The notes below the pieces were generated by a model. It was given only the letters and a program-made list of their open reading frames with translations. It did not search any database and was not told the DNA's origin. The translations under genes were made by a program, and so were the position numbers. From a virus, in IMG/VR virus record IMGVR_UViG_3300043425_000946, positions 1 to 30,725 of that record: a DNA stretch of 30,725 nt; one strand, written 5' to 3'. This document shows, one piece after another, positions 5,799 to 10,783 of the stretch (position 1 is its first letter; each line of letters opens with the position of its first letter).

Positions 5799-6021
5799 AA
5801 CCGAACTCAGTCAATTCTACAGTGATGACTACCGCTTAAAGGCGGTAGTTGTCAAGGGTGAGGAATGTTTCTTTGTAGACTTTTACAAAGACGATGTTAT
5901 AATTGACTCAGTACGAATTGATGGACATACTCTACGCTACGTAGAGGACTTGGCAGAGAACTTTGTCAATGGCATCATTCAAGTAGATCCAATTACAATG
6001 AGGATTCATGGCACAATTTGA
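5782..6021 (+). CDS. Conserved hypothetical protein between uvsX and gp41 (79 aa)
   Basis: Two adjacent ATGs (5782 and 5785) are possible starts; GGGAG at 5765-5769 lies 12 bases upstream of the first. The protein has an N-terminal beta-rich part (LKAVVVKGEECFFVDFYKDD) and a helical AEDLAENF-like block (YVEDLAENFVNGI). A small gene at this position is usual in T4-like cyanophages. It overlaps uvsX upstream and gp41 downstream (14 bp). Function unknown; the position suggests a replication accessory. Confidence 0.7.
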   Translation: MMKTAETELSQFYSDDYRLKAVVVKGEECFFVDFYKDDVIIDSVRIDGHTLRYVEDLAENFVNGIIQVDPITMRIHGTI

Positions 6022-7414
6022 GCACGTCATCTTTGGTAACTTAATGTCGAGGGAAGATTACGGTCGTCGTATTATTCCCTTCCTCAAGTCAGAGTATTTT
6101 CAGGATCGGGCCGACAGGATCCTATTTGAGCTCATTGAATCCTATGTCCACAAGTTTAACAAGTTCCCTACAGCTGAGACTTTGCTGATTGATCTGGATT
6201 CTAAGAATGGTGTGGATCAAAATTTACATGACACCATTAAGGGAACCATTGGCGGCTTAACCTACGATCCAAAGACTGATTTGGAATGGATCGTAGAGAA
6301 GACTGAGAAGTTTTGTCAAGAGAAGGCCGTCTACAACGGCATCATGAAGTCCATTCAGATTCTTGACAACAAGGATGAGCAGCATACTAAGGAAGCAATT
6401 CCTAAGATCCTTTCTGATGCTCTAGCAGTAAGTTTTGATACAAGCATCGGGCATAGTTTCCTTGACGATGCAGAGTCGCGATTTGAGTTCTATCATCGCA
6501 AGGAAAATCGAGTCCCATTCAATCTTGAGTACTTCAACAAGATCACGAAGGGCGGTTTGCCAAACAAGACACTGAATGTAATTCTGGCCGGCACCGGAGT
6601 CGGCAAGTCACTATTCATGTGTCACTGTGCGGCTGGTAACTTACTCGATGGCAAGAACGTTCTATACATCACCATGGAAATGGCTGAGGAACGTATTGCA
6701 GAACGTATCGATGCCAATCTTCTTGATGTGACAATTGAAGAATTGTCGGTGATGTCACTGGAGTCTTTCCAGAAGAAGATTGCCAAGGTAAAGAGTAAGA
6801 CTACCGGTAAGCTCATCATCAAGGAATATCCTACCTCTTCTGCTGGCTCTGCAAACTTCCGACATCTTCTGAATGAACTTAGACTTAAGAAGAACTTTAT
6901 ACCTGACATTGTCTATATTGACTACATCAACATCTGTGCATCTAGCAGAATCAAGTATACAGCAAACGTAAACAGCTATACTTACGTCAAGGCTATTGCA
7001 GAAGAACTTAGAGGTCTGGCCGTGGAGTTTAATATTCCTATCATGACTGCAACACAGACTACACGTTCCGGCTTCAGTAACAGCGATGTGGATCTAACCG
7101 ATACGTCCGAATCGTTTGGTCTGCCTGCTACTGCTGACTCGATGTTTGCCCTTATCAATAGTGAGGAACTAGAAGCATTGAGCCAGTTGATGGTTAAGCA
7201 GTTGAAGAACAGGTATACCGATCCATCCAGATACAAGCGCTTTGTGATTGGAGTGGATAGGTCAAAGATGCGACTATATGATGTGGATGAGTCAGCACAA
7301 GACTTAATGGATGACAAACCAGTGATGGATAAATCCGAGTTTGGCGAACGTGACTCTGACTTTTTCAAGAAGCGTTCTAAGTTTGATCGTAGCAAGATGG
7401 AGAACTTCAAGTGA
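6008..7414 (+). CDS. 41: gp41 replicative DNA helicase (DnaB family)
   Basis: The 468-aa protein has a helical N-terminal domain (about 1-150) and a RecA-like motor (about 170-430). Walker A is AGTGVGKS (194-201) and Walker B is DIVYIDYINIC. ITMEMAEERIAERI and MTATQTTRSG match DnaB-family motifs. It unwinds the fork 5'-3' and forms the primosome with gp61 (encoded at 16700). The C-terminal tail is rich in Asp, Lys and Phe (DSDFFKKRSKFDRSKMENFK), as in T4 gp41. The start is chosen at the ATG following GAGG. Confidence 0.96.
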   Translation: MAQFEHVIFGNLMSREDYGRRIIPFLKSEYFQDRADRILFELIESYVHKFNKFPTAETLLIDLDSKNGVDQNLHDTIKGTIGGLTYDPKTDLEWIVEKTEKFCQEKAVYNGIMKSIQILDNKDEQHTKEAIPKILSDALAVSFDTSIGHSFLDDAESRFEFYHRKENRVPFNLEYFNKITKGGLPNKTLNVILAGTGVGKSLFMCHCAAGNLLDGKNVLYITMEMAEERIAERIDANLLDVTIEELSVMSLESFQKKIAKVKSKTTGKLIIKEYPTSSAGSANFRHLLNELRLKKNFIPDIVYIDYINICASSRIKYTANVNSYTYVKAIAEELRGLAVEFNIPIMTATQTTRSGFSNSDVDLTDTSESFGLPATADSMFALINSEELEALSQLMVKQLKNRYTDPSRYKRFVIGVDRSKMRLYDVDESAQDLMDDKPVMDKSEFGERDSDFFKKRSKFDRSKMENFK

Positions 7415-7620
7415 AGAATAAGCCAAATTATGTACTCGAACAGTATTCTGGCAACTACTTGATCAAGGAGAAGAAGACAGATCAGTACATCATGTCTACT
7501 GATCATAGGATGCCTGCACTTTCTATGCTCAGCAAGTTGAACAAGGGCTCAGGCTTTGAAGGGGAGACACCATCCTTCATGGTCAAAAATATTCTCCAAG
7601 TGAACATTAAAAATTCATAA
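7411..7620 (+). CDS. Small hypothetical protein coupled to gp41 (69 aa)
   Basis: A GTG start at 7411 overlaps the gp41 stop codon (GTGA) and is served by GGAG inside gp41. The 69-aa product (MKNKPNYVLEQYSG...) has no recognised domain. It is the last gene of the replication block before the non-coding interval. Confidence 0.6.
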   Translation: MKNKPNYVLEQYSGNYLIKEKKTDQYIMSTDHRMPALSMLSKLNKGSGFEGETPSFMVKNILQVNIKNS

Positions 7621-7626
7621 CTGGTG

Positions 7627-7634
7627 AATAAATA
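7627..7634 (+). promoter_or_regulatory. Late-type promoter motif before the candidate ncRNA
   Basis: AATAAATA fits NATAAATA, the late promoter consensus of T4-like cyanophages (TATAAATA in T4). It sits 12 bp before the folded region; a start near 7640 would give an RNA of about 140 nt ending at the terminator at 7782. The motif is short, so chance occurrence is possible. Confidence 0.45.
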
Positions 7635-7639
7635 ACCGT

Positions 7640-7782
7640 GCTGAAGTAGCGTTTAGATGTTCTAGACATCGTTGTGGCATAGGGGATAACCGAAAGGAAG
7701 AGCTGGGAGTACGGTGGGGTTCCGCCCAGTAGCGCTACACTTTATATCAAAGGGGTCGGGCCGCAAGGTTCGGCCCCTTTTT
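7640..7782 (+). ncRNA. Candidate structured small RNA (not recognised)
   Basis: This interval has no reasonable coding frame but folds well by eye. P1: 7646-7653 (GTAGCGTT) with 7731-7738 (AGCGCTAC), 8 bp including one G-U. P2: GATGT (7656-7660) with ACATC (7666-7670). P3: CTGGG (7703-7707) with CCCAG (7725-7729), enclosing CGG (7712-7714) with CCG (7722-7724). AACC (7688-7691) can pair with GGTT (7718-7721) in the P3 loop, a possible pseudoknot. The result is a closed multi-branch structure followed by a terminator and preceded by a late-type promoter. It does not fit tRNA (no T-loop consensus), tmRNA or a hammerhead. Confidence 0.5.
7750..7782 (+). terminator. Rho-independent terminator
   Basis: A 13-bp stem pairs 7750-7762 with 7767-7779, including three G-U pairs, around a GCAA tetraloop, followed by a T run. 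It is the strongest terminator in the window and ends the candidate RNA, isolating the replication block from the genes at 7821 onward. Confidence 0.9.
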
Positions 7783-7783
7783 G

Positions 7784-7791
7784 CATAAATA
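7784..7791 (+). promoter_or_regulatory. Late-type promoter motif upstream of the gene at 7821
   Basis: CATAAATA matches the NATAAATA late consensus. It lies directly after the terminator and 29 bp before the start codon, where a new promoter is needed. Confidence 0.5.
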
Positions 7792-7820
7792 AAAGTAACA
7801 TATGTAATTAGGGTTAGTCT

Positions 7821-8900
7821 ATGAGTACTGATGCGCTTGCATTTAAACAAATTGCACAATTTCTAAATGCCATATCACAAAAGTATAATTTTGGTGTAGC
7901 TAAAACTTTCCCTACGGGTCGTCCAGCATCTGACAAAAGTAACACCCGCGAATTTAGAATGCAGTTGATCAACACCTCAAACGATACATCGGACACATAC
8001 AAAAAAGAACTTACAAAACTTATAGCAGCGGATAAGTCTTTTAAAAATATTAAGTTCAATGAGATATCACCAAATAGCTCCAAGTACTCATCTGTCTCTT
8101 TTAGTGCTGACGGCAGAAATTATGATGTTGTCATAAGCAAAGGAGCAAATAAAGGTGAGAATTTTGAGAAGCGTGTGGTATCTGATTTGCAAAGAGTCTT
8201 CTCTAGAAGTGAAGTAAATTTATCATACGAGACATTGATTGAGCAACTTACAAATGCTAACCCAAAATTTGTGGCAAATGAAATAAAGAGTGTTAAGCAA
8301 AGAACAGGTTCAACTAAAAAAGCTGGGGTTCCAATCGAAAAACTAGGTGAAATTATAGGTGATATAGTACTTACCGACTCATCCAACAATAATTGGTTTA
8401 TATCACTTAAGGACATCAATGGTGATACTTTTAGTTCATATGACGGAGCTTCAACACTATTCTCTGCTGATGGAGATTTGGATCGAGCATCACCTGGCGC
8501 ATCATTTTTAAATACTTTTGGTGTAAATCTTAATAAGGTTCAAGAAAGTTTTGATGAACGAAATAATAAGAAAAAAGCCCGTCAAAAATTACCTGTTTAT
8601 AAACAAAATAATCCTATTATAAAAAGCATATTTCGAAGAGCTTGGGGTATGAATTATTTCTACGTTCGTAAAACTTCAACCAGTCAATGGAAAACTTTTT
8701 GGTTAAGCAAAGAACGTCTTGACCAATTAACTTCTAATATTAAAGTAACAGAAGTTAGATACCCAAATAAATCATCAAAACAAATTACTATAGTTTGTAA
8801 TAATGCTTATGCTGACTATATTATAGAAATAAGAAATAGTAAGGGCGGTGAGTATCCAAATGATATTAAATTTAGAGTCAGGAAGGTAGATATTAAATGA
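7821..8900 (+). CDS. Putative nuclease-like protein, possible PD-(D/E)XK fold
   Basis: A 359-aa protein I cannot place firmly. The central part reads GENFEKRVV (113-120), then GDIVL (180-184) and, eleven residues later, FISLKD (193-198). The Glu helix, Asp strand and S-L-K strand order suits the E...D...(E/S)XK catalytic core of restriction-like nucleases. The C-terminal end (DYIIEIRNSKGGEYP) also recalls restriction-like proteins. The gene is visibly more AT-rich than its neighbours and uses A/T-ending codons (AAA, AAT, TTA), suggesting recent acquisition. An AGGG ribosome site precedes the ATG, and the stop overlaps the next start (ATGA). It could instead be a non-enzymatic DNA-binding or virion protein. 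Confidence 0.45.
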   Translation: MSTDALAFKQIAQFLNAISQKYNFGVAKTFPTGRPASDKSNTREFRMQLINTSNDTSDTYKKELTKLIAADKSFKNIKFNEISPNSSKYSSVSFSADGRNYDVVISKGANKGENFEKRVVSDLQRVFSRSEVNLSYETLIEQLTNANPKFVANEIKSVKQRTGSTKKAGVPIEKLGEIIGDIVLTDSSNNNWFISLKDINGDTFSSYDGASTLFSADGDLDRASPGASFLNTFGVNLNKVQESFDERNNKKKARQKLPVYKQNNPIIKSIFRRAWGMNYFYVRKTSTSQWKTFWLSKERLDQLTSNIKVTEVRYPNKSSKQITIVCNNAYADYIIEIRNSKGGEYPNDIKFRVRKVDIK

Positions 8901-10783
8901 AGAGTTACATTACTTTTCTTATAGAATCTCTTGATGTAGACAAGCTAAAGCATCTTGAGCATGCAGAAGATCATATCATCCATGGTGGCGATGAAGGAGT
9001 CAAGCATGCTGCGGATAATCTTGATGATTTGCACAACTTCATGCGTGGTAAAAAGTCAAAGTCTAAGGTAACTGTCAAGTATGACGGCTCACCCAGTGTG
9101 GTTTTTGGGCATCATCCGGAGACCAGTAGATTTTTTGTAGCATCCAAGTCTGCATTTAATGTTGATCCAAAGATCAACTACAGTCACGAAGACATAGATA
9201 GAAATCACGGTCATGCACCAGGACTTGCTTCAAAGCTCAAGTCAGCACTAGATCATCTACCTAAGGTAATGCCACCTGGCGGTGGTGTTTACCAAGGCGA
9301 CTTCCTTTATGATCATGACGATCTGAGGAATGAAGGCGGAAAGTACAAGTTCACACCTAATACGATCACGTATGGTGCTGATAAAGAATCTGCTCAGGGT
9401 AGAAAAATAGCAGCATCAAAGATGGGCTTTGTGGTCCATACCAAGTATGCCGGCAAGAAGCTGGACGATATGAAGGCCGGGTTTGATGTTGACCATGGAG
9501 CATTCAGACAAGATCCACATGTTAATCTAGTCAACCCAGAAGTTCGTCCTGATGTTAATCACAAGCATGATGAAGCATCACAAAAGGAATATGAAGGTCA
9601 TATGGCCAAGGCTCTAGATTCTTACAGGAAAGTTACTCCTGAAGCTCTAGATACAATGAAAGATCATGATTCTCATCTGAAGATGTATATCAATAGCACA
9701 GTTAGGGATGGTACTAAACCAACTACTGGAGGCTATATCAAGCATCTAGAAAAGAGACGTGATACTGAAGCCGCAAAGGTAAAGACCGATGCTGCCAAAA
9801 ACAAGAAGAATGAGCAGTTCAATGGGATGATTGAACGTGTCAAGCAGCACGAACCTGCATTGTCTTCAGGTCTTGAGATGCACGGGCATCTGCAAAGAGC
9901 TAAAGATACTTTGATTAAGGCTCTTGGTAACCCAACGGAATTTGAACATAGCGTCGGTGGTAACGAAGTAAAGCCTGAAGGCTTTGTGTCAATAAGAAAT
10001 GGCCGTCCTACCAAGCTAGTTGATAGAGCCGAGTTCAGTCGCTTTAACTTTGCAAATAACCGTGGTCGTACCGATCCTGCAGCAACGCCACCGCCTGACA
10101 AAGAAGTTCATCACGTATTTGCATTCGGTCGAATGAATCCACCAACCGCAGGTCATGCGGCCCTTGTTAATAAAGTCAAGGAAGTTGCTAAGGCAAATAA
10201 TGCCGATCATTCCATTGTCCTTTCTCACTCACAAGATCCAGAAAAGAATCCATTGTCCGCAGAGCAAAAGCTCAAGCATGCTAAGAGATTCTTTCCAGGT
10301 ACTAATTTGTCTGTAGCAACCAAAGAAATGCCTACATTCATGCATCATCTTAAGGCACTGCATGGTAAAGGTGTAACTCATCTAACTATGGTTGCAGGTT
10401 CTGATAGAGTAGAAGAATACAAGAAACTTATTGATCGGTATAATGGTCCAGGCAAGGACTTCAACTTCAAGTCTGCCAATGTTGTGTCTGCTGGTGAAAG
10501 AGATCCGGATGCAGAAGGTGTGGCTGGTATGTCGGCATCAAAAATGCGAGCACATGTAGCAGCAAATAACCTTCGAGGCTTCAAGCAGGGAATTCCAGAT
10601 CATGTAAGTCCTGCACATGCACAAGAAATGTTTGATGATGTAAAGGCTGGTATGAATGCACCAAAACCTGTAAAGCCTCCGAAGCCTAAGAAGCTTAAGG
10701 AAGAGCTAAATAATACAACCGGAATTATAAGATTTGGCACAGTACTTCGTGTCATTCGAGAATCGTTGGAAAGACAAAGCTAA
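8897..10783 (+). CDS. Fused ligase-like nucleotidyltransferase and HxGH adenylyl/cytidylyltransferase, likely capsid-targeted
   Basis: The 628-aa protein has three parts. (1) The N-terminus MKSYITFLIE resembles the capsid-targeting peptides of T4 internal head proteins; LIE|S at 8-11 fits the T4 gp21 cleavage rule (L/I-X-E). (2) Residues about 50-385 look like a polynucleotide-ligase-type nucleotidyltransferase: motif I KYDGS (K61), VYQGDFLY (131-138), FTPNTITY (152-159), EGFVSI (361-366) and KLVDR (373-377). The spacing between motifs is unusually long. (3) Residues about 405-585 resemble an NMN-adenylyltransferase/cytidylyltransferase fold: FAFGRMNPPTAGH (408-420) as the HxGH-type motif and MSASKMR (545-551) as the ISSTxxR-type motif. 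A basic, Pro-rich tail follows. Similar fusions occur in T4-like phages of marine bacteria. Substrates are unknown. Confidence 0.75.
   Translation: MKSYITFLIESLDVDKLKHLEHAEDHIIHGGDEGVKHAADNLDDLHNFMRGKKSKSKVTVKYDGSPSVVFGHHPETSRFFVASKSAFNVDPKINYSHEDIDRNHGHAPGLASKLKSALDHLPKVMPPGGGVYQGDFLYDHDDLRNEGGKYKFTPNTITYGADKESAQGRKIAASKMGFVVHTKYAGKKLDDMKAGFDVDHGAFRQDPHVNLVNPEVRPDVNHKHDEASQKEYEGHMAKALDSYRKVTPEALDTMKDHDSHLKMYINSTVRDGTKPTTGGYIKHLEKRRDTEAAKVKTDAAKNKKNEQFNGMIERVKQHEPALSSGLEMHGHLQRAKDTLIKALGNPTEFEHSVGGNEVKPEGFVSIRNGRPTKLVDRAEFSRFNFANNRGRTDPAATPPPDKEVHHVFAFGRMNPPTAGHAALVNKVKEVAKANNADHSIVLSHSQDPEKNPLSAEQKLKHAKRFFPGTNLSVATKEMPTFMHHLKALHGKGVTHLTMVAGSDRVEEYKKLIDRYNGPGKDFNFKSANVVSAGERDPDAEGVAGMSASKMRAHVAANNLRGFKQGIPDHVSPAHAQEMFDDVKAGMNAPKPVKPPKPKKLKEELNNTTGIIRFGTVLRVIRESLERQS

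Follow-up and report, generated by a model that had tools for sequence, protein, structure and literature searches.

A structured RNA with its own predicted late promoter and terminator in uncultured T4-like phages

What is encoded between the open reading frames (ORFs) at positions 7411-7620 and 7821-8900 of this phage DNA? The window, by which we mean the whole stretch analyzed, comprises the 30,725 bases of an IMG/VR virus record and carries T4-like genes, and the host phage of the RNA described here is an uncultured T4-like phage. The window encodes a gp41-like helicase (6008-7414). It also encodes a gp43-like DNA polymerase, UvsX, and ribonucleotide reductase. A first-pass annotation had proposed that the gap between the two ORFs encodes a discrete late phage RNA, about 140 nt long. 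That proposal is supported by transcription signals, covariation, an asymmetry between G-U and A-C cells, antisense placement in one clade, and the lack of an Rfam family, with transcription predicted from the signals.

Read directly and compared with its homologues, the interval 7627-7791 is a cassette of late promoter, RNA, and terminator on the + strand. The promoter, AATAAATA, lies at 7627..7634, where it had been annotated, and is of the T4/cyanophage NATAAATA type. Late transcription in T4 starts about 6 nt after the promoter, and this spacing was used to place the transcript start. The predicted transcript contains about 143 nt (7640..7782, from the positions of promoter and terminator) and ends in a U-run. 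The closing stem P1 has 8 bp and pairs GTAGCGTT (7646..7653) with AGCGCTAC (7731..7738), as judged by reading and covariation. P2 is a hairpin at 7656..7670 (GATGT/ACATC with the loop TCTAG). It is separated by a conserved junction GGCA (7676..7679; present in 100 of 107 distinct sequences) from P3 (7684..7691), a GG/CC pairing that is weak and variable in the window. A second conserved element, GGAA-N-AG, is GGAAGAG in the window (7696..7702), and its last G pairs in P4. The P4 arm (7702..7730) pairs GCTGGG (7702-7707) with CCCAGT (7725-7730), and its apical stem pairs CGG (7712-7714) with CCG (7722-7724); covariation supports both. The apical stem closes a heptaloop, UGGGGUU (7715..7721), that is near-invariant among the copies compared. 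The intrinsic terminator (7749..7782) contains a stem (7749-7762/7767-7780), a GCAA loop, and U5; the stem has 14 bp, where 13 bp had been claimed. A second late promoter, CATAAATA, lies at 7784..7791 and would serve the downstream gene. For the late-promoter consensus, NATAAATA/TATAAATA, we follow PMC2984593. The motif ATAAATA occurs five times in the window, always on the + strand, a number not above chance.

The same RNA was found in 161 IMG/VR contigs besides the window, with 108 distinct sequences in alignments A3 and A4 together; many of these contigs may be assemblies of near-identical phages. Searches with gp41 and DUF6267 proteins gave 80 and 15 loci. With nhmmer, 18 of these 95 loci proved to contain the RNA, not counting the locus of the window itself, and covariance model R1 gave 26 matches. 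The weak R1 matches in L027 (20.4 bits, E 0.091) and L031 (18.6 bits, E 0.27) were counted because the full cassette is present. A pattern scan gave 137 matches. A filter for AAATA/TTTT dropped 26, 70 remained after removal of near copies, and L117, L118, L132, and L136 were then dropped by eye. L110 failed the filter and was restored by its covariance-model score (40.4 bits). We picked 76 loci for diversity. R1 gave 72 matches, of which 69 were counted, on 95 of the loci added by the pattern scan, a run that omitted contigs already covered by the gp41/DUF6267 run. Clade III is a divergent group of 57 stretches retrieved with a second pattern that did not specify the loop. Covariance model R2 matched 56/56 newly fetched clade III loci and 14/17 other loci. 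The contig total is given after removal of double-counted contigs and three weak matches. It does not include L133, L152, or the second weak match in L126 (17.1 bits), nor does it include L174, L203, L247, and L251, whose contigs were already in it. Alignment A2 contained 40 sequences, A3 contained 76, and A4 was mostly clade III. L148 holds an N and did not fit the search expression; it is the 108th sequence beside the 107 used for the counts below.

The fold is conserved by compensatory change. In A2, 88.7% of cells pair, compared with 71.3% in shuffles, and in A3 the values are 91.3% and 63.4%. The first-pass annotation had named compensating changes among relatives as the check on its stems. 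They are present in 24 of the 24 modeled pairs, all of which change on both sides in A3, with 510 such cells against 141.6. The covariation score of A3 was 0.749, compared with 0.215 when shuffled (0 of 500 shuffles were as high) and with at most 0.118 after the partners were slid. The second, mostly different set, A4, was 91.6% paired with a covariation score of 0.653 (at most 0.169 when slid). Fitting to a model, as was done for A3 and A4, favors the structure of that model. A model-free reading agrees with them, both in the triplets that close the heptaloop and in P4, which is fully paired in 32/32 distinct clade III sequences. RNAalifold also predicts P1, inner P2, and P4 unaided on a plain MAFFT alignment.

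The stems differ in strength. In A3, P4 was paired in 100% of cells and its apical stem in 99.6%, with compensatory changes, and the inner P2 pairs were paired in 95.6%. Pairing of P3 differs between alignments, at 61.5% in A3 and 92.4% in A4, and a local test gave p <= 0.05 in 14/65 cases; it is uncertain whether P3 is part of the fold. The 8-bp closing stem and two inner hairpins of the first-pass annotation are found where it placed them, with comparative support for the stems, although the minimum-energy fold of the single sequence deviates from the comparative fold in the second arm. Folding energy was set aside as proof of structure because it was not significant without the terminator (z = +0.46); with the terminator, z was -1.99.

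The same stems indicate which strand is conserved. In P1, inner P2, P4, and the apical stem combined, G-U cells numbered 60 and A-C cells 4, an excess which implies that the conserved entity is RNA of the + strand. This bears on the reading of the interval as a DNA element (an origin, pac, or recombination site) or as a mere transcriptional insulator. A site bordering the gp43-uvsX-gp41 block of replication genes would suit such an element, and some of the terminators look bidirectional. The G-U asymmetry argues against it, however, as does the conservation of unpaired bases on one strand, and an insulator would need no such junction or loop. We find this reading hardly credible. Judged from the alignments, the comparative evidence for a structured RNA is overwhelming, and we hold with high confidence that the interval contains a real, discrete, structured noncoding RNA gene.

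The signals around the RNA point to a separate transcription unit. In 75/76 copies, TAAATA occurs in the 40 nt that precede P1, compared with 2.2% of random 40-nt windows from the same contigs, and a terminator lies 3' of the RNA in 75/76, where 66 of the 76 copies had been prefiltered for AAATA upstream and TTTT downstream. Among the 10 unfiltered copies, the promoter was present in 9 (not L090) and the terminator in 9 (not L110). The upstream signal is exactly TATAAATA in 52/76 copies. The gap between promoter and P1 is mostly 9-13 nt, with a full range of 6-28. In clade III, TAAATA was found in 59/61 loci; the exceptions, L274 and L277, have the RNA at the very start of the stretch.

The RNA does not appear to encode a protein. 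The first-pass annotation had stated that no ORF crosses the interval, which holds for ORFs of at least 60 aa on the + strand. On the minus strand, a 65-aa ORF with a TTG start (7662-7859) does cross it, almost certainly by chance. RNA lengths are spread over the three classes modulo 3 (42, 34, and 31). The median length of the longest ATG frame is 13 codons, with at least 20 codons in 43/107 sequences. The stems, together with indels and the shortness of the frames, led us to reject a protein-coding reading. The RNA has its own promoter and terminator and no ORF, as in independently transcribed phage small RNAs (sRNAs), a broad type that is already known.

A cis-acting leader (riboswitch or attenuator) or a 3' untranslated region (UTR) element for a neighboring gene would also combine a structured domain with a terminator, which is how attenuators are commonly arranged. 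In most clades the RNA is codirectional with its neighbors, and every clade I or II locus with a gp41 match has the RNA after gp41 and on its strand. Clade III has the RNA in the same neighborhood but antisense to gp41, in 55/55 loci with a gp41 match, among genes read from the other strand, and a leader or 3' UTR is therefore excluded there. A second NATAAATA lies after the terminator and before the downstream gene in 57/76 copies, and the downstream genes vary. The RNA does not occupy the 5' UTR of a gene that it would control. A cis-acting role is thus very improbable.

The neighbors were also characterized. The ORF after the RNA (7821-8900) contains 359 aa and matches phrog_8438, a family of unknown function. 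L092 and many contigs of clade III have an ORF of this type at a similar location. It was found repeatedly beside the RNA and is therefore a recurrent accessory neighbor. A PADLOC scan of three window proteins gave a single weak match, Cas6 (E 0.029), to this ORF. The following ORF (8897-10783) fuses a DUF6267-like part and a cytidyltransferase-like part. These parts are separate genes in cyanophages such as S-WAM1.

What the RNA might do is suggested by its unpaired bases. The conserved core consists of the closing stem, two covarying arms, the junction bases GGCA and GGAANA, and the heptaloop. All 107 distinct sequences fit an expression that requires GGAA in the second junction. The first search pattern required the loop, and fair counts of the heptaloop are those from copies located otherwise: UGGGGUU was present in 18/19 A3 copies located through gp41/DUF6267 (the exception is L006) and in 56/56 clade III copies (30 distinct) found by the loop-free pattern. 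The triplets that close the loop vary freely around it (CGG/CCG, AGG/CCT, TGG/CCA, CCG/CGG, CAC/GTG, GGG/CCC, CTG/CAG, and CAG/CTG). A pairing of GGAA with UUCC was rejected, as UUCC is lost and GGAA retained wherever CAC/GTG closes the loop. Near-invariant unpaired bases imply a conserved partner, and they pose a testable question, namely, what this late phage RNA binds.

One candidate partner is another RNA. As a base-pairing sRNA, the molecule would use UGGGGUU to seed antisense pairing with a conserved host RNA (rRNA, the 3' end of tRNA, or mRNA) or with phage mRNAs. The accessible G-rich loop is kept across the family, and the terminator ends in a U-run as in sRNAs. The complement AACCCC, however, was found near 3/861 ORF starts in loci with the RNA and near 3/712 in loci without it. 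Antisense targets at phage starts were rejected on this comparison. The junction bases are also conserved about as strictly as the loop. We regard base pairing as unlikely. Because of these two observations, the equal conservation of the junction and the lack of enrichment at phage starts, protein binding is preferred, and we think it somewhat probable that the RNA acts through a protein partner.

Another possibility is a virion assembly or packaging RNA similar to that of phi29 (pRNA), which would be late, stoichiometric, and possibly self-associating. The RNA is about as large as pRNA and, like it, comes from a phage and is closed by a stem that pairs its ends; it also has a late promoter and a junction fold. 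Phi29 pRNA binds the connector and the packaging ATPase, and its complementary loops AACC and GGUU pair between molecules. The window has AACC (7688-7691, inside the P3 region) and GGUU, which we take to resemble these loops, and the first-pass annotation had joined them in a possible pseudoknot. That pairing did not hold up among relatives, as AACC is in the junction of only 5/107 distinct sequences. P2 loops might offer another route to self-association. In A3, palindromes of at least 6 nt were present in 11/69 distinct P2 hairpins, compared with 1.5 expected, and comprised four sequences (UCUAGA, CUGCAG, GUGCAC, and UGCGCA). They may form kissing dimers in some clades. The palindromes are enriched but clade limited, and 37/69 P2 loops lack a palindrome of even 4 nt; a kissing-loop dimer was therefore rejected as a general feature. 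No Rfam family, pRNA included, matches the RNA, and many T4-like relatives do without it. To our knowledge, no packaging RNA is known in T4-type phages. We consider a packaging role very unlikely.

We return to a protein partner. Late transcription would begin about 6 nt downstream of NATAAATA and end at the terminator, and its product would be about 140 nt long. The RNA folds into a junction closed by P1, with arms P2 and P4, which covariation backs, and a small variable P3, for which it is weaker. This fold may be a scaffold that holds UGGGGUU, GGCA, and GGAANA in fixed places. The heptaloop and junction bases would bind a phage or host protein, and the RNA would work in trans late in infection as a ribonucleoprotein cofactor or decoy. 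We consider it probable that it is a late trans-acting noncoding RNA whose heptaloop and junction are displayed to a protein. It is doubtful whether it represents a class of late RNA not known before, one that serves T4-like phages as a working ribonucleoprotein part with UGGGGUU as the contact. Such a part might, for example, help to assemble or package capsids or to take over a universal host machine, and it would be the first structural or machine RNA in the T4-like phage group.

The RNA was compared with known families. It is not a tRNA or transfer-messenger RNA (tmRNA), as had been noted, and ARAGORN found 0 such genes in the window. The Rfam search proposed with the first-pass annotation gave 0 matches at the gathering threshold for the window with Rfam 15, and the sole matches in 15 relatives were three tRNAs, all of L110 and at a distance from the RNA. 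Permissive Rfam scans of the window, L139, and L030 gave subthreshold matches only. A type I-E CRISPR-repeat mimic (Racr) was also rejected. GGGGATAACCG, which presumably resembles the Escherichia coli type I-E repeat, is in only 4/107 distinct sequences. Phage T4 makes the small stable RNAs C and D, to which this RNA can be likened by description only, as small RNAs of a T4-like phage.

Structured RNAs from aquatic metagenomes and T4-like phages have been described before. The manA and wcaG motifs of T4-like cyanophages are of this kind and are described as likely regulators of metabolic genes, i.e., as cis-regulatory (Weinberg 2010, PMC2864571). Unlike them, the RNA here is free-standing, is antisense to its neighbors in one clade, and has no Rfam match. 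Melnitz-like phages, among the nearest cultured relatives by gp41, carry a two-piece tmRNA and a glutamine riboswitch (PMC9004378). The RNA differs from both in the ARAGORN and Rfam results above, and R2 did not find it in the Melnitz-3 record. We did not find the RNA described in the literature searched, which did not extend to subscription papers, where an earlier description is possible. To that extent, the family and its fold are new relative to Rfam 15 and the literature. The family covaries strongly across three parts of the gp41 tree of uncultured T4-like phages and has no Rfam 15 entry. Alignments A3 and A4 and models R1 and R2 define it for searches by others.

R2 found the RNA in none of 17 cultured or single-cell phage records, which include cyanophages, pelagiphage HTVC008M, and Melnitz; T4-like late biology therefore does not need it. 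In cultured phages, blastn with six RNA queries (window, L139, L113, L108, L030, and L126) gave short partial matches or none, and a longer window query gave no match. Bacterial contigs gave 12 chance-like matches, the best with 20.8 bits and many broken pairs, and bacterial genomes gave 0/398 and 0/296 in a search of limited sensitivity. The psbA family had no match in nine uncultured records, which are possibly fragments; the control, P-HM2, has it. Records searched whole contained one RNA copy each (9/9, one of them 164 kb).

Rows with the RNA fall in three separate parts of the gp41 tree, which means that it is old and was lost repeatedly or that it has moved. The 12 changes counted on this tree are an overestimate: L001, L204, L207, and L212 carry the RNA but were labeled as lacking it, and the L062 sequence stops at gp41. 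In L005, gp41 is followed (6565-6640) by a late promoter, then by a short stretch and a terminator, and then by a second late promoter, with no RNA between. It looks like a clean loss that left an emptied cassette. Some lineages can dispense with the RNA, and one of them retains a promoter and terminator without it.

Two further observations concern gene context. L110 is a 27.9-kb contig with a copy of the RNA at 671-778, in a stretch without a match to the window proteins tested, and it also holds three tRNA genes. From this contig, the RNA may occur outside the gp41 setting. In L084 and L126, the gp41 matches are in pieces (in L126 also those of gp43 and uvsX). Gaps of several hundred to about 1,150 bases separate the pieces, as if the genes were interrupted by introns or insertions.
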